From assembly GCF_017355785.1 (NCBI RefSeq), contig NZ_JAFEWE010000009.1, forward strand, positions 1 through 64,000: a stretch of 64,000 nt of DNA, in the 5' to 3' direction. This document shows positions 8,019 to 38,446 of this stretch, piece after piece (the first letter of the stretch is position 1; every line of letters starts with the position of its first letter). The notes beneath the pieces are model-generated. The model was not told the DNA's origin. It saw only the letters and a program-made list of their open reading frames with translations, and made no database searches. The stretch comes from Desertivirga arenae. Its GTDB lineage: Bacteria; Bacteroidota; Bacteroidia; Sphingobacteriales; Sphingobacteriaceae. Made by a program: the position numbers and the translations under genes.

Positions 8019-10886
8019 TTAGTCTGTTAAGATATTCTCTTTAGGCATCGTAAACTGCCTGTTTTCTGTTGTCTTTGGTATACCGAAATAGAAGTATAGG
8101 GTTCGTTTGATCGGCGTATTTACAACATTCAGTTCGCTTAATGGTCCTAAAACCTTTGTATTTGGGCTAATGTTCAAACCTAGCTTCGTTCCGATCGGAG
8201 GTATCCTATCCAGAAAAGATAGATCTCCAACAGGAAGTTCGGGATGAGGTTTAATTCCGCTCAGTCCATAGAAGTTGAATAATCGCACAAACATATCATC
8301 ATTAGGGCTAGCTACAGTGAATTTGCCTTCCACCGTATTTAGCTCCATCCAAACCACATCTGCGAAGTAACCTTTAAACTCAGGGTACAGCCAGGGAGCC
8401 CGACCGGTCTGGGTATCATTATTCCTATTTTCAAAAACGTTGTAGGTTGTTCCGAACATCCGGTTCTTCCACACTCTTGATGGTCCTTTTCCTAACCATT
8501 TTGCCCCCAATACAAAGTTTTCGGGATAGTTAAAGCTAACGCCACTAAACCAGTAATTGCCGTTAAGAGCATACTCGTAATCCATTTGTAGCAGACCATT
8601 TGGAGACATTCTCCATTTCACGTATTTCAAGTCGCCCGAGTAAGATGACTCAATAACGTGCTGTTCACCTTCCTGGTAGTGTTTCAGACCATTAAAAGTA
8701 GCATTTCCACTCACCAAAACAGGTCCATTGTTAAAGGACAGTTTATAGTTATTGTTATCATTTGCAACGCCAGCTAGTCTTCCAGTCTTTCTATTGAAAC
8801 TGATAGAGATGCCAGCCGCTTTCATAGTCAGGAGACTGTCTGCTTCGTTCACAGTTACTGCGGGTCCCGCTTTTACACTTAATACGTTTTCCAGTAACTG
8901 TGCATTTGATTTTACCTTCCAGGTCCAGCGGTAGAGCTCGTTACCCTGAGGATCCAAAGCTGTAAGTGCTAACGCGTCGTAGTTTTTCCAATCCTCTGGC
9001 AGGATAACTCTCAACGTTCCCTTTGCAGTTGGAGCTACGTTTGGAGCATTTACAGCAGCTTTTTTCGCTACAGTATAGCCAGCAGTAGATTCATCGCGCT
9101 TTTTGAAATTAATCAGCTCCCACTGGAAAGAGCATTGGTTAAGGTTAGTGAAGTGGAAGCGATTCTCAACAGGTATTTCTCCTTTAAAATTAGAAGGCAG
9201 GTTTTTTAGCGTAATGCGCACAGGAGAGTATATTTCCCTTATAGCATAAAAACTGCCTTCTTTTTCACGGTGCGGACCTACAATTCCATCTGGGGCATTG
9301 ACCCCATTAACATCAAGCATGTTATTTTGATCTGTACGCATGATACCTTCATCCGCCAGGTCCCAAATAAATCCTCCTGCTCCTCTTTTCGAATTCCAGT
9401 GAAGTTCCCAGAAATCAGCCAGACCAGCTCCTGCACCTCCATCGTCTTGTGCATGCAGGAATTCAGTCACCATATAGATGTTAGTATCGGCAAGAATCTT
9501 TTGTGTACTGTAATAATCCTCATAATGATTACAATCGATGCCATTGATGGCATTGCCTGGTTTATGATGAGCGTGAATAACTGTCCTTTTTGCCAAGTCA
9601 TATTTAGCGTAGTCATCATCCAGATCGAAGTTGTGCCCTCCTTCATTTCCATTGCTCCAGAGGATTACAGATGGATGATTAGCATCACGGATTACCATTT
9701 CTTTAACCAATGGCTCACCTGCCTTTGTACTATATGCCTTTTGCCAGCCAGCCAATTCATCTAATACATAGATTCCAAGAGAGTCACAAAGGCGAAGAAA
9801 ATTTTGGTCAGGAGGATAATGTGAACAACGAACTGCGTTCATATTCATTTCCTTGATCAGTTTTACATCTATAAGGTCGGCTTCCGGAAATGTAGCTCTT
9901 CCATACTCTGGCCAGAACACGTGCCGGTTTACCCCCTTCATCTTGATTTTAGTGCCATTCAGATAGATCCCGTCTTGTTTTCTTACCTCAATGGTTCTGA
10001 ATCCAAATTTATCTGATGTTTTATAGATAGTATTCCCAGCGCTTTTTATAGAAACGTTTGCTGTATATAGGTTCGGCGTTTCTGCACTCCATAAAAGTGG
10101 TTTTTTGACTATGGTTTTTAAATTAATAACTGAGTCTTTACCAGTAGTCTTTGCATTTGCTGTTCCTATAACTTTGCCTTGTTTATCAACTATTTCAGCG
10201 ATTATATTCCTTCCTGGCTCAGTGTTTTTTAAATAGACATTCATGTTGAATGTACCATTGGCCTTGGCATCAATAGCAGTCCATTCTATATTCTCTTTCG
10301 GCAGAGCTTCTAGATAAACAGGTCTGAATATTCCTCCAAAAACCCAGTAATCCGCCAAGCGTTCCGCATTATTAACAGAATTGTCGGCAGACATTTTACT
10401 AACCGTTGCTTCGAGCAAGTTTTTCTGGCCGTACTTTAGCTTGTCACTGATGTTATATTTAAACCGGTAAAAGGCTCCCTGGTGAACTGGTCCTGCCGTC
10501 TTCCCGTTAATTTTTACTTCGGTGTCTGTCATAGACCCCTCAAATACTATATAGACATCTTTTCCCTGCCAGTTTGCTGGCACATCAAACTGGTGCTTAT
10601 ATAATCCCTTTTCGTCTTCGAAGTGGAAATTTTTTCCATAGGTAACATAGTCCCTGCCATAGTTATATCCGCCAAATCCCTGCTGTTCCCAATGGGAAGG
10701 AACCTGAATAGAGGTCCAAAAGCCACTCTGTCTGCCTCCGGTAGCCCAAAACTCCCAGGTCTTTGTGTTTTTTACATCGGTACCTGAAAGGTACTGTACT
10801 TGTTTTGTGACTTCAGACTGGGCTATGACGTTTGCTGTAACTCCAAGAGATGCGGCAAGAACATAAATCCCTTTTTTTAAGTTCAT
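8019..10886 (-). CDS. Secreted GH2 family beta-glycosidase
   Basis: A 955-residue exported glycoside hydrolase of family 2 (beta-galactosidase/beta-glucuronidase type). Signal peptide 1-22. Domain order: jelly-roll sugar-binding domain about 40-195, Ig-like domain about 200-298, TIM barrel from about 300 to 580, then C-terminal beta domains resembling the LacZ small chain. The acid/base is Glu415 in SNGNEGG and the nucleophile Glu475 in MVTEFLHA. In this locus it most likely removes beta-linked galactose or glucuronic acid from rhamnogalacturonan side chains, but substrate choice cannot be read from sequence. It is the last gene of the minus-strand operon, 42 bases after the GH106 gene. Confidence 0.92.
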   Translation of the reverse strand: MNLKKGIYVLAASLGVTANVIAQSEVTKQVQYLSGTDVKNTKTWEFWATGGRQSGFWTSIQVPSHWEQQGFGGYNYGRDYVTYGKNFHFEDEKGLYKHQFDVPANWQGKDVYIVFEGSMTDTEVKINGKTAGPVHQGAFYRFKYNISDKLKYGQKNLLEATVSKMSADNSVNNAERLADYWVFGGIFRPVYLEALPKENIEWTAIDAKANGTFNMNVYLKNTEPGRNIIAEIVDKQGKVIGTANAKTTGKDSVINLKTIVKKPLLWSAETPNLYTANVSIKSAGNTIYKTSDKFGFRTIEVRKQDGIYLNGTKIKMKGVNRHVFWPEYGRATFPEADLIDVKLIKEMNMNAVRCSHYPPDQNFLRLCDSLGIYVLDELAGWQKAYSTKAGEPLVKEMVIRDANHPSVILWSNGNEGGHNFDLDDDYAKYDLAKRTVIHAHHKPGNAINGIDCNHYEDYYSTQKILADTNIYMVTEFLHAQDDGGAGAGLADFWELHWNSKRGAGGFIWDLADEGIMRTDQNNMLDVNGVNAPDGIVGPHREKEGSFYAIREIYSPVRITLKNLPSNFKGEIPVENRFHFTNLNQCSFQWELINFKKRDESTAGYTVAKKAAVNAPNVAPTAKGTLRVILPEDWKNYDALALTALDPQGNELYRWTWKVKSNAQLLENVLSVKAGPAVTVNEADSLLTMKAAGISISFNRKTGRLAGVANDNNNYKLSFNNGPVLVSGNATFNGLKHYQEGEQHVIESSYSGDLKYVKWRMSPNGLLQMDYEYALNGNYWFSGVSFNYPENFVLGAKWLGKGPSRVWKNRMFGTTYNVFENRNNDTQTGRAPWLYPEFKGYFADVVWMELNTVEGKFTVASPNDDMFVRLFNFYGLSGIKPHPELPVGDLSFLDRIPPIGTKLGLNISPNTKVLGPLSELNVVNTPIKRTLYFYFGIPKTTENRQFTMPKENILTD

Positions 10887-10928: not shown

Positions 10929-13796
10929 TTATTCAGGGTTTATTGTAGTCAAAGGTGTGATGGTAACAGGGCCAAGCATTCCCGATGCCCGTGGTTCCCA
11001 GTTGGCTGCTGTAAATAGTCCATCTTTTCCCGAGTTTTCTTTTCTCCTGGCCGGCATATTCGTATTATAGAATTTTTTCCAGTTTACATTGTTCTTATCA
11101 AGATAAATAACTCTGTTTGCCATAGAGTTGGTTACAAAGACCTCCAGCTTATTTTTTTTCTTAAGAAAATCCGCCGGAATTTCTAGCTGATAAATCGGGC
11201 CTATTAAGGTCGATAATTCCTGCCCATTTAATAACACTTTCGCACTCTCTTCTACAGTTCCCAAGTCAAGCAACCAGCTAGTTGCATTTCCAGCTGGTCT
11301 TTTAAATTGAATAGAATACTTTGCTGTTCCTGAAAAATCTTTCACACCTTGAATAGGAAGTGTTGTCCAGGAAGTAAGTGTTTTTAATGTAGTTGCTTTA
11401 GGAAGTAAAGGGCCGCCACTTTCAAAATTTACTTTCCAATCGCCGCCAATGACTGTACCAGCGGTTTTAGCTTTAGTATAGACATAAGGAGCACCACTTA
11501 CAGGCCTATCGGAAGTTTCTAAGATACAGCTTTCTCCTTTAGTCAATTGCAAGAAAACCTCTGTTGAAGTGCCAGACGAATTGCGAATAGCAGCGTAACC
11601 AGTTTTTTCTGTCATTGGATTAAACAGAGCAACAGAGGTTGCTGAAGTTTTTACAGGCACCCAGTTGTTAATATCCTTATTGCCAGAATTGATGATAAAG
11701 TAATAGTACCCATGGTCGTGCCTTCTTCTAATGAATTGAATCCCCTGATCTACCATGGTTTCTGCTTGCACGTTTGCGGCTTTTAATGCTTTGTCCAGTT
11801 CATCTGTCAAATAAACTGCTCCCTTTCCTATACCAGCTTTTGTCAGTCCGGGTACACCGGTTTCTGAAAAGGCAAACTGACCTGTAACATGTTTGAAATC
11901 CGCTCTCCTTTGCTCCAGCCAATTCCCGAGTCCGGGAACGTCTTCAGGCGTACTTTTAAAAAATATCACAGTTGCTCCGCTTCTCGCTAAATCGGCGAGT
12001 TTCTGATACGTAGCCAAAGGCATAAATTGGGTTTGAGGTACTACAATGGTTTTATAGAAAACATCCGCTGTTTTAATCAGTGTGTCTGCTGTAGCTAGAT
12101 TAAAAGTTTGACGATCAGATATAAAATCAAAACTATACCCCTTTTCCTGCAAAAACTTCGCGTTTTCCTCTACACTGTTACCCTTGAACCCTTTTTCCAC
12201 ACCATCGTAATGCTGAAGAAGTGTTCGCCCGGGAGTTGCAAATGAGTCATATATAGGGAGATAAAGTAAAATGTCGTTTGAGGGCTTTCCAGACTGAAGA
12301 AAGGATTGGGCTCTTGCGACATAGTTGTTGAGCTTGCCAAAGTCTTTCCAGAAAGGGTTATTTGGCGTGAAATGCACCGCTGCGTAGAAGAGCCATCCTG
12401 GCCAGGGATCATTTTGAGGAGTATAGTTTGCTCCATGATAAAAGCTGTGGTTCACTCCTCCCAGAAAAAACAGGTCCATTGCTTTTTTGATATCTCCTAG
12501 TTTGGATAGGAAATGCTCATTCTCCCAGGTGGCAGACTCTGACGAAGTAAGGAGTTTCCCAGTAACGTGAGCTGCGGATGAGGCAAATTTTATTCTTAAA
12601 ATATCTGTTCCTTCTATTTCTGGAATATCCGTAGCTGCGTAAAGGTCCAGAATGTTCGCAGGAGAACCATGCGCCTGGTTCCTTATCATAGATCCCCGGT
12701 TCTTGGCCCATTTATGCCAGGTTTCGGTATAATTTTCAAGAAGGAGATCTGAAACTGTTTCTCTATAGTCAGAAAGTACCCGTTGGTTTTTCTCCTTACT
12801 GTCTTTGCCAAATAATGCTGGTAAGTAGTTCTTGAGGTCGTATCCCCGTCTCTTTTTAAATTCAGAAAAAAAATCAGGAGTCCAGTTTGCTTCACCTTGT
12901 GCATCGTCTACCTCATAAGAATCATTAAAAAATGCGCGTATACCAGAAACGTCCTGTTCTTTAAATTTTTCGTTGAAATGGTTTAAATAGTTATTCGTTG
13001 CATTTTTTGAGAAATGGTCGATAGCATAACCTTCTCCTCCTGGTCCAGCTCGTTCAACCATTTTACCGTGCATCCCTATAAAGGCAGCATACAAGCTCCA
13101 GCTGCCTTTAGGAGCTACGCAGTTTAAGTTCCCTTTGTCGTCAACATATTTAATCAAGTCTAAAGCTTCACCCTTGTCGGAGTAAGCCATCAAAGCTTGT
13201 AGAGGTAAGGCCTTTGGAAAGCGTACCTGATCAAAAGCGTGAAGCTGAAGATTAGGATTGGACGCGATTGGCTCTTTCAATCTAGAGATCTCAATACGTT
13301 CTCCCACCGTTCTGACTAATGCTGACTGCCAATATGTTACCGGTTCTTTTAGTTTTTCCCCAGATTTTAAATTGTAGGTCTTGAAGGCAATGTATTTACT
13401 AGCATCTTCGTCGCTAACCCAAGGGCCGCCGAACGGCCAGCCAGAAGCTTGTGCCATATCTACCCCCAAATTGAGACGCTTGCCTTCTGCCAGCGTGTGT
13501 TTTAGGGCGTTTATCCAATCAGGAGAAAGGAAGTTTATAAATAACTTCTCATTACCCTTTACCCCATAAATAGGGGTTATTTCTACACCTCCCAGTCCCA
13601 CCTTCGAATATTCGTTCAACATCCAGGTCAAGTCTTTGTTATTTACAGCGCTACCTTCCCACCACCAACGGGTCCAGGGTTTGTTCTGTTGTGTGATCTT
13701 CGGCCATTCTGGTTTGGAAGTCTGAGCACTTGCCAAACCGTTCAATGCCAGTGCTGCTAGTGTTAAGATTACTCTTGAAAATTTCTTACTCATCAA
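10929..13796 (-). CDS. Secreted GH106 alpha-L-rhamnosidase
   Basis: A 955-residue exported enzyme of GH106, a family whose characterised members release terminal alpha-L-rhamnose from pectic and other rhamnosides by inversion. Signal peptide about 1-24. The N-terminal block PWTRWWWEGSAV, the GLGGVEITPIYG motif, SSESATWENEHF near residues 416-427 and GVNHSFYHG further on are conserved with the second GH106 in this window (35657). A C-terminal galactose-binding-like domain carries VLLNGQ and ends ASGMLGPVTITPL. It is fourth in the operon, 43 bases after the GH28 gene. Confidence 0.9.
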   Translation of the reverse strand: MMSKKFSRVILTLAALALNGLASAQTSKPEWPKITQQNKPWTRWWWEGSAVNNKDLTWMLNEYSKVGLGGVEITPIYGVKGNEKLFINFLSPDWINALKHTLAEGKRLNLGVDMAQASGWPFGGPWVSDEDASKYIAFKTYNLKSGEKLKEPVTYWQSALVRTVGERIEISRLKEPIASNPNLQLHAFDQVRFPKALPLQALMAYSDKGEALDLIKYVDDKGNLNCVAPKGSWSLYAAFIGMHGKMVERAGPGGEGYAIDHFSKNATNNYLNHFNEKFKEQDVSGIRAFFNDSYEVDDAQGEANWTPDFFSEFKKRRGYDLKNYLPALFGKDSKEKNQRVLSDYRETVSDLLLENYTETWHKWAKNRGSMIRNQAHGSPANILDLYAATDIPEIEGTDILRIKFASSAAHVTGKLLTSSESATWENEHFLSKLGDIKKAMDLFFLGGVNHSFYHGANYTPQNDPWPGWLFYAAVHFTPNNPFWKDFGKLNNYVARAQSFLQSGKPSNDILLYLPIYDSFATPGRTLLQHYDGVEKGFKGNSVEENAKFLQEKGYSFDFISDRQTFNLATADTLIKTADVFYKTIVVPQTQFMPLATYQKLADLARSGATVIFFKSTPEDVPGLGNWLEQRRADFKHVTGQFAFSETGVPGLTKAGIGKGAVYLTDELDKALKAANVQAETMVDQGIQFIRRRHDHGYYYFIINSGNKDINNWVPVKTSATSVALFNPMTEKTGYAAIRNSSGTSTEVFLQLTKGESCILETSDRPVSGAPYVYTKAKTAGTVIGGDWKVNFESGGPLLPKATTLKTLTSWTTLPIQGVKDFSGTAKYSIQFKRPAGNATSWLLDLGTVEESAKVLLNGQELSTLIGPIYQLEIPADFLKKKNKLEVFVTNSMANRVIYLDKNNVNWKKFYNTNMPARRKENSGKDGLFTAANWEPRASGMLGPVTITPLTTINPE

Positions 13797-13839: not shown

Positions 13840-15369
13840 CTATAGTCTCTTATCATCTGCCTTCTTGTAGCTTTTATTTGGTATGGATTTGCTCGCGACA
13901 GAGCTGTAGTCTTTCACATTTTTTAAAACTACCAAGGCTGCACCAGGAGCCCTTTGTGCCTCTACATTATTAAGTTCAATATTTTTGACGTCGTCAATGA
14001 TAATTGCAGGACGAGTTTCTTTACCAAGGAAACTAAGCTCGACATTATCCATCTGAATATTTTTAGCATGACGGATAAAGAAACCATACGAAGGGATCAC
14101 CCCAAACTTTTGGGGCTCAGGATAGGAACCTTTAGAGTCTTCCGGAACAACTTTTTGAATAACACTTTCAGCTGAATCTATAGGCCGGTAGTAAATTCTA
14201 ATGTTGCTTAGCTTAACATCTTCGATATCTCTTTCCTCATCGCCTAAAATTAGTGAGGAGAAATGCGAATCTGCGTTATATACCACGAAATTGCTGATGT
14301 TAATCCGCCTGAGCTGGCCTTTAGGAGTTCCCTCAGGAGCTCGCATGCGCCTTCCGAGTCTTAAGAATATAGGAGAATTAACAATATCCCTCATCGTGAT
14401 ATTCGAAATAGTTACGTCTTCCAGTAGGCCTCCATCTACTGTTTCAAGTGCTAGTCCCCTGCAATAATCAAATACACAATTAGTAATAGTAATATTCTTA
14501 AATCCTCCGTTAGATTCCGTTCCAAATTTAATTCTACCTGTGGGCCCTTCTTTATCCGGAACTAACTGGCTTTCTTTTCGTTCAAAAGTGCCTTTTATGA
14601 AGGTCCCTCTATCATATCCACTAACCTGGCAATTGGTGATAGTAACATTTTCGGTGGCGCGTGGGAATCCGAGTGCATATGAACTTTTTAAACATATGCC
14701 ATCATCAAAAGGAGAGTTTACGCTACAGTCTGAGATGCGAACGTTCCTGCAGCAGTCTACATCTATCCCATCGCGATTAGTGTCGATCTTTAAATTATTG
14801 ATCGTGAAGTTATCTATCCCTGTTGCCAGGATGCCAAAATGGCCTCCGTAAAGGATAGTGAAATCTCTCAAAATAACATTTCTGCATAATTTTAGTGCAA
14901 TAGCTTTATTTCCTATTGGTGCTTTGTAAGGACCAAATCGGGTCAGTCCTTTTCCATAAATAGTACCGGGGCCAAGAATAGATATATTGTCTAAATTCTC
15001 ACCCCAGATCAGGCTATTGTGCCAATGGCTATGTCCAAAATCCTGGTAAATATCGTTGGATGCGGGCTCGGGTGCATCATAGCCTTGATCTCCTTTTGGT
15101 TCTGCAGCCAGGATTGTAGCTCCCTGATCAATGTATAGAGAAATATTGCTTTTTAAACGGATTGAATAGCTAGGATAAGTTCCTGCTGGAAAAAATACAG
15201 TTCCTCCGCCTTGCTGTCCTGCTGCTTCAATCGCTTTGTTTATCGCTTCAGTATCCATCGTTCCACCATCTCCTTTTGCACCAAAATCTTTCACATTGAA
15301 GACAATGGAGGCGCCAAAGGTTGTTGAAGAAAAGACAGCGCAAATTATTACTGCCAAAATTTTTCGCAT
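13840..15369 (-). CDS. Secreted GH28 rhamnogalacturonase-like hydrolase
   Basis: A 509-residue exported GH28 beta-helix enzyme acting on the pectin backbone. I place the start at the ATG at 15369, because MRKILAVIICAVFSSTTFG is a clean signal peptide; a longer frame from 15390 would add seven residues overlapping the upstream gene. Asp200 (NRDGID), Asp222-Asp223 (FDDGICLKSS) and the basic motif RIK at 279-281 are present. Where family members have GHG, this protein reads YDRGTF, so the active-site histidine is absent. That fits the variation seen in rhamnogalacturonan-directed GH28 members. It begins 10 bases after the acetylesterase stop, so the two are translationally close. Confidence 0.9.
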   Translation of the reverse strand: MRKILAVIICAVFSSTTFGASIVFNVKDFGAKGDGGTMDTEAINKAIEAAGQQGGGTVFFPAGTYPSYSIRLKSNISLYIDQGATILAAEPKGDQGYDAPEPASNDIYQDFGHSHWHNSLIWGENLDNISILGPGTIYGKGLTRFGPYKAPIGNKAIALKLCRNVILRDFTILYGGHFGILATGIDNFTINNLKIDTNRDGIDVDCCRNVRISDCSVNSPFDDGICLKSSYALGFPRATENVTITNCQVSGYDRGTFIKGTFERKESQLVPDKEGPTGRIKFGTESNGGFKNITITNCVFDYCRGLALETVDGGLLEDVTISNITMRDIVNSPIFLRLGRRMRAPEGTPKGQLRRINISNFVVYNADSHFSSLILGDEERDIEDVKLSNIRIYYRPIDSAESVIQKVVPEDSKGSYPEPQKFGVIPSYGFFIRHAKNIQMDNVELSFLGKETRPAIIIDDVKNIELNNVEAQRAPGAALVVLKNVKDYSSVASKSIPNKSYKKADDKRL

Positions 15370-15379
15370 CTGAACAAAC

Positions 15380-16663
15380 TTAATTTCCATCCGGCTTAAT
15401 AGTAGATTTTGAAGGACTGAGAGGCCAATAAAAAGATGTGATTAAATCTGGTTGAGCAGGGTCAAAGCCTTCGAAGTTAATGATATATTTCGTTAGACCT
15501 AGTTTAATGTCTTTCATACCCTGAACTACACATTTTGCCATTTCAAAAGCACCAAATGGGTTAGGGTGAGTATTATCCACCTGAGGGTTATGAGCAAATG
15601 CTTTCTCCGACTCTCCCGGTCCCCAAGCTTCATACAGAACCTTAGTCATCTTATTCAAATCGATCAGAGGGACATTTTCCTCTCTTGCAACTTGCCGACA
15701 GGCGGCAGGATAGTCTCCTAATGTTTCGTTTATCTGCCCATTTTCATTGAAGTTTCTCCTTTGAATAGAGGTTACTATAACCGGAATCCCCCCTTTCTTA
15801 CGTGCCTCTGAAATGAAGTACTTTAAATCTCTTTTATAGCTTGTAAAAGGCCCTATTCCTTCTCCTTTCTGTTTCTGGTCATTGTGCCCAAATTCAATGA
15901 ACAGGTAATCCCCTTTGCGCATCTGGCTTAAGATCTTTTTCAAACGGTTACCTGCAAGGAAATTACTAAGAGTCTCTCCTGACTCAGCATAGTTAGCCAC
16001 AGAAATCTTCTTCGGTTCAAAAAAAGCAGGAAGCATCTGGCCCCATGCAGCAAACGGCTCGTTGGCCTGATCAACTACGGTCGAATTTCCTGCAAGAAAT
16101 ACTCTGGTAGGTTTTTTTGCCCTTGTTATTTCTACGGCAGCTACTTTCGGATTGGCACCATTGAATTCTAATGTTAATTGGTCATCCCAGTGAAAGTAGT
16201 CGAATTCGCGAGGCTTCAGCTTAACTTTTTCAGTAGTACCAGGAATCTCAGGTCTTCGTATGTGAACTGTAAATGTCTTTTCCTTTATTTCTCCCTGTCG
16301 TGTAAGCTCTTTATAGATCATTACTCGCCGGCATTCTGCCCTCACTGTCTGCTCAGATGTACCTTCTTTATCTCCCAGTATTACTTTTACATCATAGTCC
16401 CCTTCAGGAAGATCTACACTAAAGTAGAAGGGCTGATTGCTCGTTATAAAGTCGTTTTTCAGAGCATCTTTTCCATGTGCCATTCCGGTTAATGAAGATC
16501 CGGGCAGAAAGCCATAGCCTTTTTCTTTTGAGTAGGTTGTTTCGGGAAGAACCTGGGTGTACCCCTTTTTTAATTCTCCTGGTCCAAAATCAAACTTCCT
16601 GCTCTGAGAATATGCTATGCCTGATGTAAAAATACAAGCTAGTAATGCAGCTGATACCTTCAT
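15380..16663 (-). CDS. Rhamnogalacturonan acetylesterase with N-terminal accessory domain (SGNH, CE12-like)
   Basis: A 427-residue exported esterase expected to remove O-acetyl groups from galacturonate in rhamnogalacturonan. Start chosen at 16663 (MKVSAALLACIF), giving a standard signal peptide; the frame extends 17 codons further upstream without one. Residues about 22-180 form a beta-rich carbohydrate-binding-like domain. The SGNH hydrolase follows: nucleophile Ser194 in AGNST, oxyanion Asn261 in FGHND, and Asp363/His366 in DNTHPN. It is twice-domained compared with the short acetylesterases at 32360 and 33154. Second gene of the operon. Confidence 0.9.
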   Translation of the reverse strand: MKVSAALLACIFTSGIAYSQSRKFDFGPGELKKGYTQVLPETTYSKEKGYGFLPGSSLTGMAHGKDALKNDFITSNQPFYFSVDLPEGDYDVKVILGDKEGTSEQTVRAECRRVMIYKELTRQGEIKEKTFTVHIRRPEIPGTTEKVKLKPREFDYFHWDDQLTLEFNGANPKVAAVEITRAKKPTRVFLAGNSTVVDQANEPFAAWGQMLPAFFEPKKISVANYAESGETLSNFLAGNRLKKILSQMRKGDYLFIEFGHNDQKQKGEGIGPFTSYKRDLKYFISEARKKGGIPVIVTSIQRRNFNENGQINETLGDYPAACRQVAREENVPLIDLNKMTKVLYEAWGPGESEKAFAHNPQVDNTHPNPFGAFEMAKCVVQGMKDIKLGLTKYIINFEGFDPAQPDLITSFYWPLSPSKSTIKPDGN

Positions 16664-16702
16664 TTCTGTTTTGTAAGATAATATAGATTGAGAAATTAAT
16701 AC

Positions 16703-16728
16703 GAAAGCCAGCATTACAGCCGGCTTTC
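16703..16728. terminator. Hairpin inside the pectin operon
   Basis: GAAAGCC (16703-16709) and GGCTTTC (16722-16728) pair around a smaller GC/GC step. It lies in the 74-base gap between the GH105 and acetylesterase genes. On the minus strand there is no U-tract after it, so it is more likely an mRNA-processing or stability element than a full stop. Confidence 0.4.
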
Positions 16729-16737
16729 TTTTATTGA

Positions 16738-18120
16738 TTATTTTGTTATCTGTACTGAACTGTCGTTAATAGCAAAAGGATGAATCTGCAGCATCCTGAA
16801 TATTTCAGCTCCGGCAAGTAATACCGGACCGTATCCATGGGCCGCATATACATTGATAGGGCGGTAGAAGTAAAAGGCCGGATCAAAACCCATTCCTGTT
16901 CCAACGCAGGTACCTTCTACCTGACCTTTAGAATTCACTTTTGTACTTACTGCGTTCCATGCCAACAACGCCGCGGGACCATATGCTTTCGCATCTAACC
17001 AACCTTTATTGACGGCTCTTGCTAAACAATAGGCATATATTGCAGTAGCTGACGTTTCTAAATATGTTTCATTACGATCTAAAAGCTGATGCCAAAAACC
17101 AGTTCCATCCTGCCGCGCAGCGAGGCCGGCTGCATGCTTTTTTAACATATCTAAAATTTCAGCCCTTCCTGGATGATTTTCAGGCAAGGCATCCAAAAGT
17201 TCTATTTTGGTAAGAATAGCCCATCCGTTTGCTCTTCCCCAATGAAATTGCGGATGAGGGTACATTTCCTGCACCCAGCCATGCATATATAGTCCTCGTT
17301 CATTGTTAAACATCCGCTGTGAAAATTGGCGGTATTGTTTTACAGCCTCATCGAAGTACTTCTTATCGCCCGTCAGTACTCCCATTTGTGCAAGAGCAGG
17401 CAGGCTCATATAAAGATCATCTAACCAAAGGGTATTGGGTTGGGGCCGATTACGTGCAAGAGTCCCATCGGTTAAACGAAATTCTTTTGTCATTATATAA
17501 TTTATGAAGTTATCGACAGAAGGGCGAATGTCTGATTTTAACTGACCCGTTCTTAATGTCTTGATAAAGGAAGCTGTTAATGCACCGCCATCATCCAAGG
17601 CATGCGGATGTAAATAGGAGCGAACAGGAGTAGGAGCATCAGGATTCTTTTTTGTAAATTCTTTAAAACCGTTAATTACTTCGGCAATAAAATTAACCCT
17701 GTTAACAGCATAGTCAGTATATTTTTTATCTCCCGTAGCTGCACCAGCCTCCAGCATACCAGTATAGGTAACTCCCCATTCATAGCTCAGGAGCCTAAAA
17801 TCCCCTGGTTTAAAAATTGTATTTGAATTTGCTTTTTTATAGTCTGTAACTGTACTCTGGGTAGTCTTGTCTATCAGCTGAGTATGGGTCGTTTCGTTTA
17901 GATAGTTATAAACTTTATCCAAAACAGCTTTAACATCGCTCGGCTTTGTTTCTCCGTAAGGCGTTGGATACTCCGGCTTGAGCAAATGAAGGGGCGTTGT
18001 AGAGTCGTTCCCTTTTAAATTAGTGTACTGGGCAAATAAGGGAAAGCTTGTTAAGGTAAGCCCCATAGCGATTGTAATCTTAAATGCGTTTTTCCGGCCT
18101 TGGTAAGATAAAATTGGCAT
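16738..18120 (-). CDS. Secreted GH105/GH88-family unsaturated rhamnogalacturonyl hydrolase
   Basis: A 460-residue exported (alpha/alpha)6-barrel enzyme of the GH105/GH88 group. These enzymes hydrate the unsaturated uronic acid left at the non-reducing end by pectin lyases. Signal peptide about 10-30. HALDDGGA at 173-180 holds the candidate catalytic Asp pair, and WGRANGW at 294-300 is the family hallmark. It is the first gene of the minus-strand operon, so the promoter must lie in the 510-base divergent region. No pectin lyase is encoded in the window to produce its substrate. Confidence 0.9.
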   Translation of the reverse strand: MPILSYQGRKNAFKITIAMGLTLTSFPLFAQYTNLKGNDSTTPLHLLKPEYPTPYGETKPSDVKAVLDKVYNYLNETTHTQLIDKTTQSTVTDYKKANSNTIFKPGDFRLLSYEWGVTYTGMLEAGAATGDKKYTDYAVNRVNFIAEVINGFKEFTKKNPDAPTPVRSYLHPHALDDGGALTASFIKTLRTGQLKSDIRPSVDNFINYIMTKEFRLTDGTLARNRPQPNTLWLDDLYMSLPALAQMGVLTGDKKYFDEAVKQYRQFSQRMFNNERGLYMHGWVQEMYPHPQFHWGRANGWAILTKIELLDALPENHPGRAEILDMLKKHAAGLAARQDGTGFWHQLLDRNETYLETSATAIYAYCLARAVNKGWLDAKAYGPAALLAWNAVSTKVNSKGQVEGTCVGTGMGFDPAFYFYRPINVYAAHGYGPVLLAGAEIFRMLQIHPFAINDSSVQITK

Positions 18121-18630: not shown

Positions 18631-19707
18631 ATGAGGCGTAGAGAGTTTATTACAAATACCCTTCTAATATCTGCTGCATCTTTTCTGCCTCAGTTTTCAC
18701 TTGGTTTGGATGATCCCAAATGGAAGTCTCACATGTCTCCATTTGGAAAGAGGCTTAAACCAGTTGGGCGGGCATTGGAAATGGAAGGATATTATGTATG
18801 GTGCAACAGTCCGATAATGGGGCCTGACGGCAAGGTGCACGTCTTCTTCTCACGCTGGCCCTCAAAAAAGGGAATGGGGGGATGGATTAATAGCTCGGAG
18901 ATAGCTCACGCGGTAGCTGATCACCCGGAAGGTCCATTTCAATATTTAAGTACAATTTTAGCTCCCAGGGGGCAGGGATATTGGGATGGTACTACCTGCC
19001 ATAATCCTCATATCAAAATCGTTGATGGTAAATACTGTCTTTTTTTTATGGGCAACTCTAATGGGAAAACAAACACTAAAAGAATTGGGATGGCCATAGC
19101 GGATTCCTTATATGGACCCTGGAGCCGCCCTGAACACCCATTGTTAGAAGTCGGCCCGGAAGGAGCCTGGGACGATCATTGCACTACTAATCCTGCTTTT
19201 TTGAAGCATCCAAACGGTCAATATTGGCTTTACTATAAGTCATGGAACAATAATGATTATTACAACTCTAAAGATCCTGCGATCAGAGGAAACCGGAAAT
19301 ATGGCCTGGCAATTTCAGACAAGCTTGAAGGTCCTTACATAAAATACGCTGGAAATCCAGTTATTGACTACTCAGGTAAGGGTGGGAATAAGCAGTTTGA
19401 AGACGCTTTTGTTTGGATGGAAAAAGGGAGGTTTAATATGCTGGCCCGTGATATGGGAGTATATAACCAGGAAGTTGGATTGTATATAAGATCAAAAGAT
19501 GGATTACAGTGGAACGACCCAAAAGTTGCTTTTGGTCCAGTTAGTGAGTATTTGCAGGAACCTCCTGCGCCTTCCCATCTAAAACGGTACGGGCGTTTAG
19601 AACGTCCACAAATATTATTTATTAAGGGAAAGCCTGCATATTTGTTTACAGCTTCCCAGGGAGGCAAATTTATGACGGCTTCTTCCTTTATCTTTAAAAT
19701 ATCCTAA
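18631..19707 (+). CDS. Exported five-bladed beta-propeller glycosidase-like protein (GH43/GH117-like)
   Basis: A 358-residue protein whose repeated pattern (HVFFSRWP, YCLFFMGNS, YWLYYKSW, FEDAFVW, AYLFTASQG) fits the five-bladed beta-propeller of GH43, GH117 and related families. The N-terminus MRRREFITNTLLISAASF matches the twin-arginine export consensus, and tatC is encoded at 50696. Acidic residues that could be catalytic are present (DGTTCHNPHI, DDHCTTNP, FEDAF), but I cannot assign a family with certainty. In this locus an arabinosidase or galactosidase role on rhamnogalacturonan side chains would fit. It is the first gene of a three-gene operon, 16 bases before the GH28 gene. Confidence 0.75.
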   Translation: MRRREFITNTLLISAASFLPQFSLGLDDPKWKSHMSPFGKRLKPVGRALEMEGYYVWCNSPIMGPDGKVHVFFSRWPSKKGMGGWINSSEIAHAVADHPEGPFQYLSTILAPRGQGYWDGTTCHNPHIKIVDGKYCLFFMGNSNGKTNTKRIGMAIADSLYGPWSRPEHPLLEVGPEGAWDDHCTTNPAFLKHPNGQYWLYYKSWNNNDYYNSKDPAIRGNRKYGLAISDKLEGPYIKYAGNPVIDYSGKGGNKQFEDAFVWMEKGRFNMLARDMGVYNQEVGLYIRSKDGLQWNDPKVAFGPVSEYLQEPPAPSHLKRYGRLERPQILFIKGKPAYLFTASQGGKFMTASSFIFKIS

Positions 19708-19723: not shown

Positions 19724-21157
19724 ATGAACCTCAAGAGAGACATTAACAAATTTTTGGTGCTTGCTGTTATTGCACTGTTCCTATCCTTTAAGTCGACTGA
19801 TACTCCTAAAGTATGGACGACTTCGGCGCAGCCGCAGAAAGAATTGGAGGCATTAAGAAAGGAAATTAAGGCACCTCGTTTTAAAAACAAGGATTATCTT
19901 ATTACTGATTTCGGAGCAAAGGCTGGTGGTGAAGTTAATAACACTGTAGCTTTCAGAAAAGCGATAGAAGCTTGTAGTAAAAATGGAGGAGGACGGGTAG
20001 TTGTACCTTCCGGAGCTTTTTTAACGGGCGCAATTTACCTGAAGAGTAACGTTAACCTGCATCTTGCTGATGGATCAACGATTGTGTTCAGTCATAACCC
20101 CAAAGATTATCCTATTGTCTTTACAAGATGGGAAGGGATGGAATGTATGAATTATTCCGCCCAGATCTATGCTTATGGTGAAAAGAACATTGCAGTAACA
20201 GGAAACGGTACTTTGGATGGTAATGCTAATAATGATCGATGGTGGAATTGGAATGGAAGCCCCAGGTACGGATGGAAGGAGGGAATGCCAAAACAGACTC
20301 CTGCAAGGACTGCACTTCACGAGATGATGCATAAGCAGATAGACCCAAGGAAACGTGTTTTTGGCGACGGACATTATCTAAGACCAAATATGTTCCAGCC
20401 TTATAATTGTAAGAATATTCTGGTTTCAGGAGTGAAAATGATTAACTCTCCTATGTGGTTTATGAATCCTGTTCTTTCTGAAAATATCACGATAGAAAAG
20501 GTAAGGGTGGCAGCTCATGGTCCTAATACCGATGGATGTGATCCTGAAGCATGTAAGAATGTGCTGATTAAGGATTGTTACTTTGATACAGGTGATGATT
20601 GTATTGCTATTAAATCTGGCAGAGATGAAGATGGACGCAGGATTGGCCGGCCAGCAGAAAACCATATAATTGAAGGGTGTGAAATGAAAGACGGACACGG
20701 AGGTGTGGTGATAGGAAGTGAAATTGCTGGAGGGGCTAGAAATATCTATGCCATAAATTGTATAATGGATAGCCCTAACCTTGACAGAGTTCTGCGTTTG
20801 AAGACAAGTTCTTCCCGAGGAGGCATCATTGAAAATATTTTCATGAAGGACATTAAGGTTGGTGCTTATAAAGATGCGGCAATTACCTGCAATATGTTTT
20901 ATGAAAATCCGGGTAGTTTTATGCCTACTATCAGAAATGTATGGGTGGAAAATCTGGACGTTTCAAATGGCGGCAATTATGGTGTTTTCGTGAGAGCTTA
21001 TAAAGCATCTCCCGTCCAAAACCTTAAGCTAATCAATTGTGATATCAGAGGTGTGAAAAAGCCTATGCAGATAGATTATGTGAAAAATATGGAATTGAAG
21101 AATGTAAAGATTAACGGAGAGATGGCTGTCTTGCCTGATACATTACAGAATAAATAA
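19724..21157 (+). CDS. Secreted GH28 polygalacturonase (canonical active site)
   Basis: A 477-residue exported GH28 enzyme hydrolysing galacturonan in pectin. Unlike the other two GH28 proteins here it has the complete signature: NTD with Asp270, GDD with Asp291-Asp292, GHG with His325, and a basic RLK at 358-360. Residues 1-22 form a hydrophobic export signal or anchor, followed by about 35 linker residues before the beta-helix starts at YLITDFGAKAGG. The segment SGRDEDGRRIGRP after the catalytic Asp pair is typical of exo-polygalacturonases in Bacteroidota. Second gene of the operon; the next gene starts 37 bases later. Confidence 0.92.
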   Translation: MNLKRDINKFLVLAVIALFLSFKSTDTPKVWTTSAQPQKELEALRKEIKAPRFKNKDYLITDFGAKAGGEVNNTVAFRKAIEACSKNGGGRVVVPSGAFLTGAIYLKSNVNLHLADGSTIVFSHNPKDYPIVFTRWEGMECMNYSAQIYAYGEKNIAVTGNGTLDGNANNDRWWNWNGSPRYGWKEGMPKQTPARTALHEMMHKQIDPRKRVFGDGHYLRPNMFQPYNCKNILVSGVKMINSPMWFMNPVLSENITIEKVRVAAHGPNTDGCDPEACKNVLIKDCYFDTGDDCIAIKSGRDEDGRRIGRPAENHIIEGCEMKDGHGGVVIGSEIAGGARNIYAINCIMDSPNLDRVLRLKTSSSRGGIIENIFMKDIKVGAYKDAAITCNMFYENPGSFMPTIRNVWVENLDVSNGGNYGVFVRAYKASPVQNLKLINCDIRGVKKPMQIDYVKNMELKNVKINGEMAVLPDTLQNK

Positions 21158-21194
21158 AATTCGTAATTGAAGAACTAGAAGTTATTTAAGTACT

Positions 21195-23345
21195 ATGACC
21201 CCAAATAAATTAATAGCAGGCTTTATATTTTGCCTTTCATTATTTACTACTATTCTCACCCAGGCTCAGCCAATTAATCGTCAAGCTGTTGTTCTGCGCC
21301 ATACTATCGTCAATACACGCATTGATTCCCTGGAATCTCTTTCAGTGGGAAATGGAAAGTTTGCCTATACGGTAGATGTTACAGGACTTCAAACGTTTCC
21401 GGAAAGATATGCCAAAGGGGTCACGCTTGGTACCCAATCCGAATGGGGGTGGAACAGGTTGAAGGATACAGCTGGATATAAATTTGAAGAAACTTTAAAA
21501 GAGTATACGCTCAACGGAAAGAAGTCTTCCTATTCCGTTCAGTTCTCCGAAGCTGGATCCAGACAAAGGGCCGCATCGGATTGGTTCCGTAAAAGCGTTC
21601 ATCGTATTCAACTAGGGAACCTCGGATTGGATATTTATAAGAAGGACGGAACGCTAGCAAAGCCAGTAGATCTGAAGAATATCCGCCAAACTTTGAACAT
21701 GTGGACAGGTGAGATTGTGAGCCATTTTACTGTGGAGGAAAACTCTGTTGATGTAATTACCGTCGGACATCAGGATCAGGACCTGGTTGCGTTTCAAATC
21801 AAGTCACCTTTAATTGCGGCTGGGCGTTTAAAATTAAAGTTGAAGTACGCTTATCCTACCATGGAGTTTCTGGACGAAGGTGTAAACTACAAGGATCCGC
21901 AGAAACATAGATCATCTATTACTTCTCAGAATGAAAGTGGTGCAGTAATTCAGCATGCACTGGAAGGAATTACATATTCATCAATATTCAAATGGAGTAA
22001 GGGAACGGCAGCTGCAACTACTACCTCTCATTACTACCAGATAACTCCTGATAAGAGTTCGCAAGTATTTGAACTGAGTTGTTTATTTTCTCTTCAACCG
22101 GTAGAGGCTGTGACGTTGCCCACATTTGCACAGACCAGAGAAAATAGTATCACCGGGTTAAAGAAGTTTTGGATGAGTGGAGCAGCGATTGATTTTGCAG
22201 GCAGTACCGACATCCGGGCAAAAGAACTAGAGCGTAGGGTGATCACATCAGAATACCTTACTAAAATTCAATGTACCGGTTCTTTTCCTCCCCAGGAAAC
22301 GGGGTTAACTTACAACAGCTGGTTTGGTAAGCCTCACCTGGAAATGCATTGGTGGCATGGCATCCATTTCGCACTTTGGAACAGGCCAGAACTGTTGGAG
22401 AAGAGCCTCGATTGGTATTTCAAGGTTGAGGAGGGGGCTAAGGAAATTGCAAAACGACAGGGTTTCAAAGGTGCTCGTTGGCAGAAGATGACGGACCATG
22501 AAGGATTAGAAAGCCCTTCATCTGTTGGAGCTTTCATTATTTGGCAGCAACCTCATCCTATCTATATGGCCGAATTGCTGTATAGAGATGAGAACAGCAA
22601 AGATGTGCTGGAGAAGTACAAAGACATTGTTTTTCAAACAGCAGAATTCATGGCATCATTCCCTACGTATGATAGTATTAAGCAACGTTACAACCTCGGG
22701 AAAGGCCTCATTCCTGCTCAGGAAGTATTTAAAGCAGTGGATACTTATAACCCAAGTTATGAGTTGGCTTACTGGGACTGGGCGCTGCGGATCGCACAGA
22801 AATGGCGCGAACGGTTGGGTATGCCACCCAACTCTGACTGGGATGCAGTAATAAATAAGCTTGCACCTTTACCAAAGCAAAACGGACTTTATTTGTCAAC
22901 AGAGAATACCCCTGATTCTTTTACTAACGAAGAGTGGTTGCGGGATCATCCATCTGTACTGGGCACCTTAGGTATGGTTCCCGCAGGTGCTAAGCTCGAT
23001 AAAGCTACTATGCAACGGACTTTCGATACAGTTTGGAAGGTTTGGCAATGGGACGATACCTGGGGATGGGATTTCCCTATGACTGCTATGACTGCAGCGC
23101 GATTAGGTAAGCCCGAGAAAGCAATAGATGCTCTCTTTATGAATATAAAGACTAATACTTACCTGAAGAACGGACACAATTACCAGGACGGCCGGCTACG
23201 GATCTATCTACCAGGTAATGGAGGTGTACTGGCAACAGTAGCCATGTTGGCTGGAGGATGGGATGGTTCTTCCGGTCCTAATCCAGGCTTCCCTAAGAAT
23301 GGTAAGTGGAAGGTCAGATCTGAGGGATTTAAAAAAATGCCATAA
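21195..23345 (+). CDS. Secreted (alpha/alpha)6-barrel protein, possible glycosidase
   Basis: A 716-residue exported protein of uncertain family. Signal peptide about 1-24. The N-terminal 300 residues look beta-rich (super-sandwich), and the C-terminal part is helical with TYNSWFGKPHLEMHWWHGIHFALWN-type aromatic-rich motif around residues 371-395, WQWDDTWGWDFPM around 617-629 and DGRLRIYLPGNGG near 665-677. This two-domain build resembles clan GH-L and GH95-type enzymes. No characterised family can be named with confidence. Co-transcription with GH28 and the propeller protein suggests a role on pectin side chains. A terminator follows 5 bases after the stop. Confidence 0.7.
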   Translation: MTPNKLIAGFIFCLSLFTTILTQAQPINRQAVVLRHTIVNTRIDSLESLSVGNGKFAYTVDVTGLQTFPERYAKGVTLGTQSEWGWNRLKDTAGYKFEETLKEYTLNGKKSSYSVQFSEAGSRQRAASDWFRKSVHRIQLGNLGLDIYKKDGTLAKPVDLKNIRQTLNMWTGEIVSHFTVEENSVDVITVGHQDQDLVAFQIKSPLIAAGRLKLKLKYAYPTMEFLDEGVNYKDPQKHRSSITSQNESGAVIQHALEGITYSSIFKWSKGTAAATTTSHYYQITPDKSSQVFELSCLFSLQPVEAVTLPTFAQTRENSITGLKKFWMSGAAIDFAGSTDIRAKELERRVITSEYLTKIQCTGSFPPQETGLTYNSWFGKPHLEMHWWHGIHFALWNRPELLEKSLDWYFKVEEGAKEIAKRQGFKGARWQKMTDHEGLESPSSVGAFIIWQQPHPIYMAELLYRDENSKDVLEKYKDIVFQTAEFMASFPTYDSIKQRYNLGKGLIPAQEVFKAVDTYNPSYELAYWDWALRIAQKWRERLGMPPNSDWDAVINKLAPLPKQNGLYLSTENTPDSFTNEEWLRDHPSVLGTLGMVPAGAKLDKATMQRTFDTVWKVWQWDDTWGWDFPMTAMTAARLGKPEKAIDALFMNIKTNTYLKNGHNYQDGRLRIYLPGNGGVLATVAMLAGGWDGSSGPNPGFPKNGKWKVRSEGFKKMP

Positions 23346-32359: not shown

Positions 32360-33139
32360 ATGAATTTTAAATTTAGAATGAGGAGCATACTGCCGTTATT
32401 GATCGCCTCTCTTAGTGTACTTTATGCTTTTAAGGCGGATAAAAAGCCGGTAATTTATATTATAGGAGACTCCACGGTCAGAAATTTCAATAATCAGCAA
32501 AGGGGATGGGGAAGTTTTCTGTCATCATTCCTTGATACTACTAAGATCAGCGTAGATAATCAAGCCATGGCTGGTAGGAGTACGCGTACTTTCATTAAGG
32601 AGAACCGGTGGAATAAAGTTGATTCTATGATGAAGTCTGGGGATTATCTTCTTATGCAGTTTGGACACAATGAAGGGTCCAAGCCAGATACCTCCCGGGC
32701 AGGATATCGAGGGGTATTGCAAGGGACCGGAGAGGAAACAAAAGAGTTAACCTGGAAGGATGGCACAATTGAGACTGTTCATACTTATGGATGGTACCTA
32801 CGGAAGTTCATAAGAGAAGCAAAGGCTAAAGGGGTGACACCAGTGGTAATTTCAATGATCCCGCGAAATCAATGGAAGGATGGGAAGGTGCTGCGAGCCA
32901 ACGAGAGCTACGGCAAATGGGCGAAAGAAGTTGCCGAGCAGGAAGATGTATTTTTTATAGACCTAAATAAGATTACAGCCGATAAATATGATCAGTTGGG
33001 TGCAGACAAGGTGAAAGACTATTTCTACGGGGACCATACACATACCAATGAGGTTGGGGCACGAATCAATGCGAGCTCTGTAATAGAAGGAATCAGGCTA
33101 GACAAAAAGCAGCCGTTAAACAAATACATTAAGAAATAA
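32360..33139 (+). CDS. Rhamnogalacturonan acetylesterase 1 (SGNH, CE12-like)
   Basis: A 259-residue exported SGNH esterase that should deacetylate rhamnogalacturonan. Signal peptide about 1-25. Nucleophile Ser38 in GDSTV, block III Asn104 in FGHNE, and catalytic Asp225/His228 in GDHTH. It lacks the accessory domain of the enzyme at 15380. First gene of a four-gene operon; the paralogue starts 14 bases later. Confidence 0.92.
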   Translation: MNFKFRMRSILPLLIASLSVLYAFKADKKPVIYIIGDSTVRNFNNQQRGWGSFLSSFLDTTKISVDNQAMAGRSTRTFIKENRWNKVDSMMKSGDYLLMQFGHNEGSKPDTSRAGYRGVLQGTGEETKELTWKDGTIETVHTYGWYLRKFIREAKAKGVTPVVISMIPRNQWKDGKVLRANESYGKWAKEVAEQEDVFFIDLNKITADKYDQLGADKVKDYFYGDHTHTNEVGARINASSVIEGIRLDKKQPLNKYIKK

Positions 33140-33153
33140 TAATCAGGTAACTA

Positions 33154-33957
33154 ATGAAGCAAGTAATTAAGTTTAGTCTTTTTTCAGCGATTATATTGTT
33201 CTCATCCTTCATTCTGACCAGGCCTGCAGATAAACCAACGCTGTTCCTGATCGGCGATTCTACTGTTCGAAATGGTCATGGGAAAGGAGATGGAGGATTG
33301 TGGGGTTGGGGAAGTTTTCTTCATGAATTTTTCGATACTACAAAGATCACTGTTAAAAATGAAGCCTTAGGTGGCACCAGTTCCCGTACTTTTTTTAACC
33401 GGGGACGCTGGGCTGCAGTACTTCCGCAAATTAGAAAAGGCGATTATCTGATCATGCAATTTGGACATAATGATAATGGACCGCTGGATGACACCGCCCG
33501 GGCAAGAGGAACAATTAAAGGAACCGGTGATGAAAGCAAAGAAATCTATAATCCAATAACCAAACAGCAGGAGGTGGTATATTCTTATGGCTGGTACATA
33601 AAGAAAATGGTACAGGAGGCAAAAGAGAAAGGAGCTACGGTGATCGTTTGCTCTCCTATACCCAGAAATGACTGGAAAGAGGGTAAGGTTAACCGGGCAA
33701 GTGAAGGCTATGGGAAATGGGCAAAAGAGGCAGCTTTGGCTTCAGGTGCCTTTTTCTTAGATTTGAATACACTTATTGCTGAGGATTATGATGTGGAAGG
33801 AGAATCAAAAGTAAGAGAAACCTACTTCAACACACAAGATCATACTCACCCGATAGAAGCAGGCGCTCGCCTTAATTCTGCCAAGGTAGTAGAGGGAATT
33901 AAAAGTATTAAAGGTCTTTCTTTAAAGAAATACTTGACTAAACAAGCTAAAAAGTAA
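33154..33957 (+). CDS. Rhamnogalacturonan acetylesterase 2 (SGNH, CE12-like)
   Basis: A 267-residue exported SGNH esterase, tandem paralogue of the preceding gene with the same motif set: Ser36 in GDSTV, FGHND, and DHTHP near the C-terminus. Both share GWGSF, the GTGEE/GTGDE block followed by YGWY, and the IPRN-W-GKV stretch. Retention of two copies suggests different positional or substrate preferences. The GH105 gene starts 11 bases downstream. Confidence 0.92.
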   Translation: MKQVIKFSLFSAIILFSSFILTRPADKPTLFLIGDSTVRNGHGKGDGGLWGWGSFLHEFFDTTKITVKNEALGGTSSRTFFNRGRWAAVLPQIRKGDYLIMQFGHNDNGPLDDTARARGTIKGTGDESKEIYNPITKQQEVVYSYGWYIKKMVQEAKEKGATVIVCSPIPRNDWKEGKVNRASEGYGKWAKEAALASGAFFLDLNTLIAEDYDVEGESKVRETYFNTQDHTHPIEAGARLNSAKVVEGIKSIKGLSLKKYLTKQAKK

Positions 33958-33968
33958 ACACATAAAAA

Positions 33969-35126
33969 ATGAATAATCGTTCCTGGCTAAAAACCATTTA
34001 TTGCTTATTGTTCCTGACAGTAACAGTAAGTCAGATGCAAGCTCAAAGTTTGCCGGATAAAAAAAGTGTTCTTAACGTAATGCGTTTAACGAATAGGTAT
34101 TTTATGAATACCTGGCCTGATGCAGGTAAACCAATAGTTACTAATAAAGAAAGACCAAGTAATATCTGGACCCGAGGCGTTTACTATGAAGGATTGATGG
34201 AGCTATATAGAATAGAGCCGAAAAAAAAGCACCGGAAATCTTACTATAACTATGCAGTGCAATGGGGAGAAAAGCATAAATGGGGATTAAGGAGTGGAAC
34301 TGCAAGGGAACGGCAGAATGCTGACGATCAAACTTGCGGACAGACCTATATAGATCTTTATCTGATCAATAAAAAGGAAGAACGTATAAGGGATATAAAA
34401 GCGGCAATAGATGGTATGCTTGCAAGTGATAGAGTTGATGACTGGTGGTGGATAGATGCACTGCAAATGGCAATGCCAGTTTTTGTACGTTTAGGAGAGG
34501 TGTATAACGAGCCTAAGTACTATGATAAGATGTATCAGATCTACAATTACACCAAAACCAAGCACGGGGGGAACGGATTATGGAACCCAGCTGATAAACT
34601 CTGGTGGAGAGATAAGGACTTTGTGCCTCCTTACAAGGAGCCTAATGGTGAAGATTGTTATTGGGCGAGAGGAAACGGCTGGGTTGTAGCAGCGTTAGTT
34701 CGCACGTTAGAAAAGCTTCCAAAAAGCGATCCTCATTATAATGAATACTTACAGGACTATAAAGACATGTTGGCGGCTCTGCTTCCCATTCAAAGGCAAG
34801 ATGGATATTGGAATGTTAGCCTTCACGATCCCAATAACTTCGGCGGTAAAGAGTTAACTGGTACTTCACTTTTTGTTTATGGTATGGCCTGGGGGATAAA
34901 TAATGGGCTAATAGATAGAGCAACGTATCTTCCGGTTTTGACTAAAGCCTGGAATGTTATGACAAAAGAGTGTGTGCATCCTAATGGTTTTCTGGGATAT
35001 GTTCAGGGAACAGGTAAAGAGCCGAAAGACGGACAACCTGTAAGCTACACATCGAAGCCTGACTTCGAAGACTACGGTCTAGGTTGTTTCTTACTAGCAG
35101 GTAGCGAGGTTTATAAGCTGAAGTAA
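33969..35126 (+). CDS. GH105 unsaturated rhamnogalacturonyl hydrolase 2
   Basis: A 385-residue exported (alpha/alpha)6-barrel enzyme of GH105. Signal peptide about 1-26. NADDQTCGQTYIDL at 117-130 carries the putative catalytic Asp, and WARGNGW at 232-238 is the family hallmark, as in the copy at 16738. The product is a 4-deoxy-uronate and a shortened rhamnogalacturonan oligosaccharide. Its length is close to characterised family members, whereas the first copy is 75 residues longer. Third gene of the operon. Confidence 0.92.
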   Translation: MNNRSWLKTIYCLLFLTVTVSQMQAQSLPDKKSVLNVMRLTNRYFMNTWPDAGKPIVTNKERPSNIWTRGVYYEGLMELYRIEPKKKHRKSYYNYAVQWGEKHKWGLRSGTARERQNADDQTCGQTYIDLYLINKKEERIRDIKAAIDGMLASDRVDDWWWIDALQMAMPVFVRLGEVYNEPKYYDKMYQIYNYTKTKHGGNGLWNPADKLWWRDKDFVPPYKEPNGEDCYWARGNGWVVAALVRTLEKLPKSDPHYNEYLQDYKDMLAALLPIQRQDGYWNVSLHDPNNFGGKELTGTSLFVYGMAWGINNGLIDRATYLPVLTKAWNVMTKECVHPNGFLGYVQGTGKEPKDGQPVSYTSKPDFEDYGLGCFLLAGSEVYKLK

Positions 35127-35204
35127 TAGTTGCAATATGCGCTGGCTGTTTATAGAAGATATCGGAAACTAATTATAGGTCAATCAAATTTTTATCTAAG
35201 GAAA

Positions 35205-35519: not shown

Positions 35520-35556
35520 AAACACTCAGGTAAGCTTATTCTTAAAGGAATTTTAA

Positions 35557-35596
35557 ATACTGTCCATAGAGGCTATGGTGCTTCTTCGGACAGTAT
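35557..35596. terminator. Nested hairpins between mutarotase and GH106 genes
   Basis: Outer arms ATACTGTCC (35557-35565) and GGACAGTAT (35588-35596); inner arms CCATAG (35564-35569) and CTATGG (35573-35578). The two compete for the bases 35564-35565. No long U-tract follows. It may be a weak terminator or an attenuation structure limiting read-through to the GH106 gene. Confidence 0.45.
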
Positions 35597-35656
35597 TATA
35601 AGTAAAGCCTTCTATGTCTTGACAGACAATCGGGGCTTTTAATTTATAAACGCAAT

Positions 35657-38434: not shown

Positions 38435-38446
38435 GTAGAATGATTT

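Follow-up and report, generated by a model that had tools for sequence, protein, structure and literature searches.

The described enzymes closest to the protein analyzed here belong to glycoside hydrolase families GH65, GH95, and GH139. GH65 enzymes are inverting, and phosphorylases of this family lack the glutamate that acts as base in the hydrolases. According to PMC12282258, GH95 and GH139 enzymes invert as well, with a glutamate as general acid (E566 in GH95 AfcA, E561 in GH139) and an asparagine as base (N423 and N412, respectively) that is activated by an aspartate (D766 and D723); the base network of GH139 departs from that of GH95. Both families include enzymes acting on plant cell-wall decorations, as stated in PMC12282258 and PMC10154630.

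A 716-residue protein (hereafter Q), candidate for an undescribed glycosidase activity judging from its sequence, is encoded in a pectin cluster of Desertivirga arenae. The window, that is, the whole stretch of 64,000 nucleotides that was analyzed, contains the following cluster features:

6537..7955, plus strand, GH28
8019..10886, minus strand, GH2
10929..13796, minus strand, GH106 alpha-L-rhamnosidase (PF17132, E 1.6e-73)
13840..15390, minus strand, GH28-type parallel beta-helix protein
15380..16714, minus strand, GDSL esterase with a galactose-binding domain, putatively a pectin acetylesterase
16738..18120, minus strand, GH88-type protein (unsaturated uronyl hydrolase; PF07470, E 1.9e-88) of the divergent operon
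18631..19707, plus strand, beta-propeller enzyme, first gene of the operon (Pfam Glyco_hydro_43, E 9.1e-9)
19724..21157, plus strand, GH28 of the exo-polygalacturonase type, directly upstream of Q (PF00295, E 3.5e-29; PDB 3jur, E 2.6e-121)
21195..23345, plus strand, Q, candidate glycoside hydrolase with a signal peptide apparent by eye, an N-terminal beta domain, linker helices, and an (alpha/alpha)6-type barrel
32360..39593, plus strand, remaining half of the cluster, with a pair of GDSL-like esterases, a GH105-like hydrolase, a GH106 (identified by Pfam, the others by eye), and a regulator

The open reading frame of Q begins with ATG and is free of internal stops. It is the third of three genes on one strand, separated by 16 bp between propeller and GH28 and by 37 bp between GH28 and Q, an arrangement compatible with a single operon and in line with the co-transcription assumed in a sequence-only reading of this DNA. 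A consensus scan of positions 18050-23700 yielded one terminator-like site, located within the GH28 gene, against a chance expectation of 4.2. The same reading had described the GH28 partner as exo-type, and its closest solved relative is indeed the T. maritima exo-poly-alpha-D-galacturonosidase (3jur); against the NCBIfam model of the BT4155 alpha-galacturonidase it reaches E 9.4e-97, with 324.5 of 800 bits and thus below the cut-off. The propeller, previously called unassigned, deserves that label only in part: a profile search of the PDB retrieved anhydro-galactosidases and their relatives, which we take to be GH117 (3,6-anhydro-alpha-L-galactosidases), at E 1.6e-16 to 7.9e-14 and GH43 at 6.7e-11, so that by sequence it falls between GH43 and GH117.

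Elsewhere in the window, a fused trehalose-6-phosphate synthase/phosphatase is encoded at 39595-41790 (minus strand), two tandem and similar lipoprotein-like open reading frames lie at 268-1188 and 1251-2174 (both minus strand), and two photolyase/cryptochrome-like genes are placed about 2 kb apart, one recognized by eye (55885-57204, minus strand) and one by Pfam (59171-60445, plus strand). The genome holds a second copy of Q, 79% identical to the protein of the window, at C12:284995-287106, in a locus with SusC/SusD-like genes, GH2, GH95, and two proteins named pectate-lyase-like by eye and by cluster. No gene of the window between 6537 and 39593 falls into the SusC or SusD clusters, unlike the paralogous C12 locus, where both are represented.

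To place Q among known folds, its AlphaFold model (pLDDT 89.3, pTM 0.91) was compared with solved structures. The two-domain build read from the sequence is borne out by this model, in which a beta-rich N-terminal part extending to about residue 300 is followed by linker helices and a helical barrel. Foldseek returned the GH65 alpha-1,2-glucosidase 7fe3 as best match (E 2.7e-23). By structural Z, the model is close to human GH65 PGGHG (9sd6; Z 29.9 over 561 residues, 3.3 A, 15% identity), F. johnsoniae alpha-1,2-glucosidase (GH65, 7fe3; Z 29.2), the GH95 fucosidase 8zbv (Z 27.6), the GH65 phosphorylase 3wiq (Z 26.3), and GH139 structures (Z 23.0 to 24.1, the latter for 9hmb). These matches, drawn from the families represented in the fold tables, span residues 31-716 and thereby both domains, which extends the predicted GH65/GH95-type fold over the whole length of the protein. 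In a viral fold library the top match was a Tetraselmis virus protein of GH65, with nothing closer.

Sequence profiles point in the same direction. A 57-row profile of Q matched seven distinct PDB sequences, all of them GH65 and all weakly (best E 1.6e-4), making GH65 the sole family reached in the PDB in this way. In hhalign comparisons against sets assembled and named in this analysis, the 57-row profile scored 96% with 18 GH95 proteins, 95% with three GH65 "hydrolase-like" sequences (one of them cut at 438 aa), and 0.2% with five GH65 "phosphorylase-like" proteins. Seven further families encoded in these loci (GH105, GH88, GH28, GH106, GH2, PL11, and DUF4450) were tried as relatives with the same profile and rejected, none of them exceeding 20%. 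With an 80-row profile the values were 97.5% over 599 columns for GH95, 97.4% over 562 columns for the hydrolase-like set, and 26% for the phosphorylase-like set, whereas reversed or column-shuffled controls reached at most 0.3%. The near-identical values for the two families, set against these controls, indicate that Q is homologous to both GH65 and GH95 and about equally distant from them. The strikingly aromatic conserved segments noted earlier are likewise recovered, with tryptophan occupying 12 of 57 invariant positions in the 80-row alignment, in which at least one pair of rows (L105 and L128) shares a contig.

Despite this homology, Q matched none of the 24,736 Pfam models (2025), including those for GH65 and GH95, and none of the 18,950 NCBIfam models (June 2026) at E values up to 1, as anticipated by the earlier statement that no known family could be assigned. 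The GH95 catalytic model (PF22124) does match seven other proteins of this genome, while the GH65 model Glyco_hydro_65m (PF03632) finds none. Within Pfam and NCBIfam, we found no characterized family with known substrate to which Q belongs, CAZy being outside the scope of this search. Q could thus already be part of a recent CAZy family that Pfam and NCBIfam do not yet model, given that the literature covered comprised open-licence papers other than preprints; we regard this as rather unlikely, as neither database has a model, no paper on the family was found by title or abstract start in that literature, and the plasmid-borne matches that carry an annotation (seven of nine) are all termed "hypothetical protein".

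Candidate catalytic residues were mapped onto GH65 and GH95 from sequence profiles rather than from coordinates. E510 of Q lies opposite the glutamate of the GH95 "SPEN" motif (PAQE in Q; alignment confidence 7 to 6), which is presumably AfcA E566, and opposite the general-acid glutamate of GH65 (author number E430, assuming an offset of one between index and author numbering). It is present in 112 of 112 aligned sequences, not all of them independent: L105 and L128 share a contig, and a single genome contributes L032, L033, and L035. The general acid therefore appears conserved as far as profiles can tell. A further ten positions (H381, E383, W387, H388, K431, H585, W625, D626, P673, and N675) are shared by 111 of these sequences. 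The lone exception is L031, which differs at all ten signature positions and retains E510. This 744-aa protein of genome G224 is GH65-like, with 28% identity to Q, and on its sequence we regard it as lying outside the Q family, possibly as a separate family.

The residues that activate water in the known families, by contrast, do not appear to be conserved. The position of GH95 Asp766, which we take to be the aspartate of QIDGNFG, is occupied by Pro673 in 111 of 112 sequences (confidence 7 to 9), so this feature is absent from Q. The GH95 motif TEMNYW corresponds to LEMHWW in Q, and the residue before the aligned LEM/TEM is His381 (111/112); a gap of four residues at this point leaves its match to Asn423, presumably the asparagine preceding TEMNYW, ambiguous. 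The WDTE motif of GH65 is replaced by HLEM, and the GH65 base glutamate falls opposite Y656 or N654 of Q in a block of confidence 0 to 2 (0 at the base itself), leaving Q without an evident counterpart. With Pro673 in place of the aspartate, probably His381 in place of the asparagine, and no clear equivalent of the GH65 base, water would have to be activated differently in Q, perhaps by His381 or by Asp626, which adjoins the presumed substrate-stacking Trp625.

The absence of a clear base glutamate would also suit a glycoside phosphorylase, because GH65 phosphorylases lack it too, and their fold is common to that of Q, as the match to 3wiq illustrates. We nonetheless consider a phosphorolytic activity very improbable. 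The N-terminus of Q resembles a Sec signal peptide in a by-eye reading, which would direct the protein to the periplasm, and the profile match to the phosphorylase-like set reaches 26% compared with 97% for the other two sets.

Whether Q is a divergent GH95 or GH65 enzyme with a known activity, such as alpha-L-fucosidase, galactosidase, or alpha-glucosidase, acting on pectin decorations, can be weighed on the same data. Shared with GH65 are the superposition of both domains in the predicted model and the alignment of the general acid with E510, and with GH95 (AfcA; 8zbv; 7kmq) the profile homology over 599 columns and conserved tryptophans; full-length homology to both, together with the cell-wall enzymes present in GH95 and GH139 (PMC12282258 and PMC10154630), speaks for such an assignment. 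Q departs from GH65 in its identity of about 15% and in a context of pectin rather than glucosides, and from both families in what appear to be different base residues and in escaping their Pfam models, even though PF22124 detects other proteins of the genome. Moreover, set against an outgroup of four GH95 proteins, all sampled Q sequences form a single clade on a long branch of the tree. Membership with a known activity is thus improbable in our view. GH139, represented by the RG-II 2-O-methyl-fucosidase BT0984, resembles Q in overall fold as judged by structure comparison, in its relation to pectin, and in a base network unlike that of GH95, yet the gene context is RG-II for BT0984 and rhamnogalacturonan-I (RG-I) for Q. 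Because the Pfam models of GH65 and GH95 miss Q and the Asp766 of GH95 has become a proline, we place it in neither; within Pfam and NCBIfam, it is best called an uncharacterized family beside GH65, GH95, and GH139.

This family is by no means restricted to the window. Q matches were found in 29 of 395 Bacteroidota genomes, and scanning a single genome for each species gave at least 591 related places, of which 80 were kept as named loci; the closest named relatives among the matches listed, 76 to 77% identical, are from Pedobacter sp. SYSU D00535 and Paradesertivirga mongoliensis. Among 72,556 plasmid records, nine contain a match (Asticcacaulis, Arthrobacter, Paenarthrobacter, Streptomyces, and Nonomuraea). 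With Bacteroidota, Asticcacaulis, and Actinomycetota, the family reaches three phyla, and the designation of Q as an orphan has to be abandoned. The paralog and the hundreds of relatives also rule out a spurious open reading frame.

The pectin setting proposed from the window alone is recovered across the family: 76 of the 80 named loci carry one or more genes for pectin or rhamnose and 59 carry three or more, leaving four without any (L040, L074, L083, and L109). Within up to 10 kb on each side of Q (less in some loci), neighbors include DUF4450 in 60 loci, GH28 in 47, PL11 RG lyase in 30, relatives of the regulator encoded in 32360..39593 in 28, the propeller in 27, rhamnulokinase-like and GH88 genes in 21 each, and GH105-like and rhamnose-isomerase-like genes in 19 each. 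The GH105, GDSL (three clusters), PL1-like, and regulator clusters were named by eye; Pfam was consulted for one member of one GDSL cluster and for one PL1-like protein, the latter giving zero matches. PL11 occurs in 26 of 395 genomes, 19 of which are among the 29 bearing Q (1.9 expected; Fisher p ~1e-19, uncorrected for phylogeny). In Bacteroidota, Q is linked to RG-I degradation. It is not needed for every form of RG-I use, since 4 of 21 genomes with strong PL11 matches lack it. We also considered an argument from a missing alpha-L-rhamnosidase and dropped it, because GH106 and GH78-type domains are present in 28 and 29, respectively, of the 33 genomes bearing Q or PL11.

In all four Asticcacaulis plasmids Q adjoins a pectate lyase, with DUF4450 inside the same 20 to 26 kb. 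Other copies speak against too simple an RG-I account. Actinomycetota homologs have as neighbors either GH97 or an MFS transporter together with GH3. The copies on Arthrobacter-group plasmids (L113, 12022-14157; L176, 10022-12157) lie between an MFS transporter and GH3 and have no evident signal peptide, which hints at a non-pectin role inside the cell. Among 20 wider stretches around Q genes, some divergent members have no adjoining pectin gene, and one (L133) lies behind genes resembling a cell-wall and division cluster.

The sequence-only reading had emphasized the two operon partners visible in the window, an emphasis that the wider comparison shifts to DUF4450, the most faithful companion of Q, which is encoded outside the window at another place in this genome. 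Of the 72 loci with a contiguous, co-oriented upstream gene, 50 have DUF4450 directly upstream of Q on its own strand, and all 15 of the 395 genomes with DUF4450 carry Q (1.1 expected; Fisher p ~1e-19, uncorrected for phylogeny). In D. arenae the gene is found at C34:481091-484756 (locus L118), adjoining a GH28. DUF4450 proteins comprise about 1,130-1,260 aa. A model built from 24 sequences (pLDDT 78.3) has GH94 as top Foldseek match (E 3.5e-21) and alpha-L-rhamnosidases at the top of the structural Z ranking (27.5 over 407 residues, 3.0 A), and as modeled DUF4450 is a second uncharacterized (alpha/alpha)6 enzyme with a GH94/GH78-like fold. No paper in the open-licence literature covered here names it.

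Taking together the computed fold, homology, invariant candidate acid E510, and RG-I context with the inferred export, exo action, inversion, and alpha linkage, Q is in our judgment probably a periplasmic inverting exo-alpha-glycosidase with E510 as acid and a base unlike that of its cousins, active on pectic and mostly RG-I oligosaccharides. It would remove an alpha-linked, non-reducing terminal sugar from RG-I or related pectic oligosaccharides, with E510 serving as general acid. Inversion of configuration would follow the precedent of GH95 and GH139, as described in PMC12282258. GH65 offers the same precedent. The fold itself does not give the sugar, since the relatives cover several specificities. 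We would rank alpha-D-galacturonic acid first, then L-rhamnose, then an L-fucose, L-galactose, or D-galactose decoration; a uronic acid is the first guess because the invariant Lys431 (111/112) in the pocket region could hold its carboxylate.

A more far-reaching version is tentative and, to our mind, somewhat doubtful: that Q defines a new family in at least three phyla, with a water-activating residue (a histidine or the neighboring aspartate) unlike that of GH65, GH95, and GH139, an obligate partner in DUF4450, and the role of removing an RG-I linkage left by known enzymes. If true, Q and DUF4450, near-constant companions without described function, would be central in the pectin loci of common soil and root Bacteroidota. 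Defining their activities would close a gap in the account of pectin breakdown by these bacteria, and Q would add another mode of water activation on the fold of GH65, GH95, and GH139.
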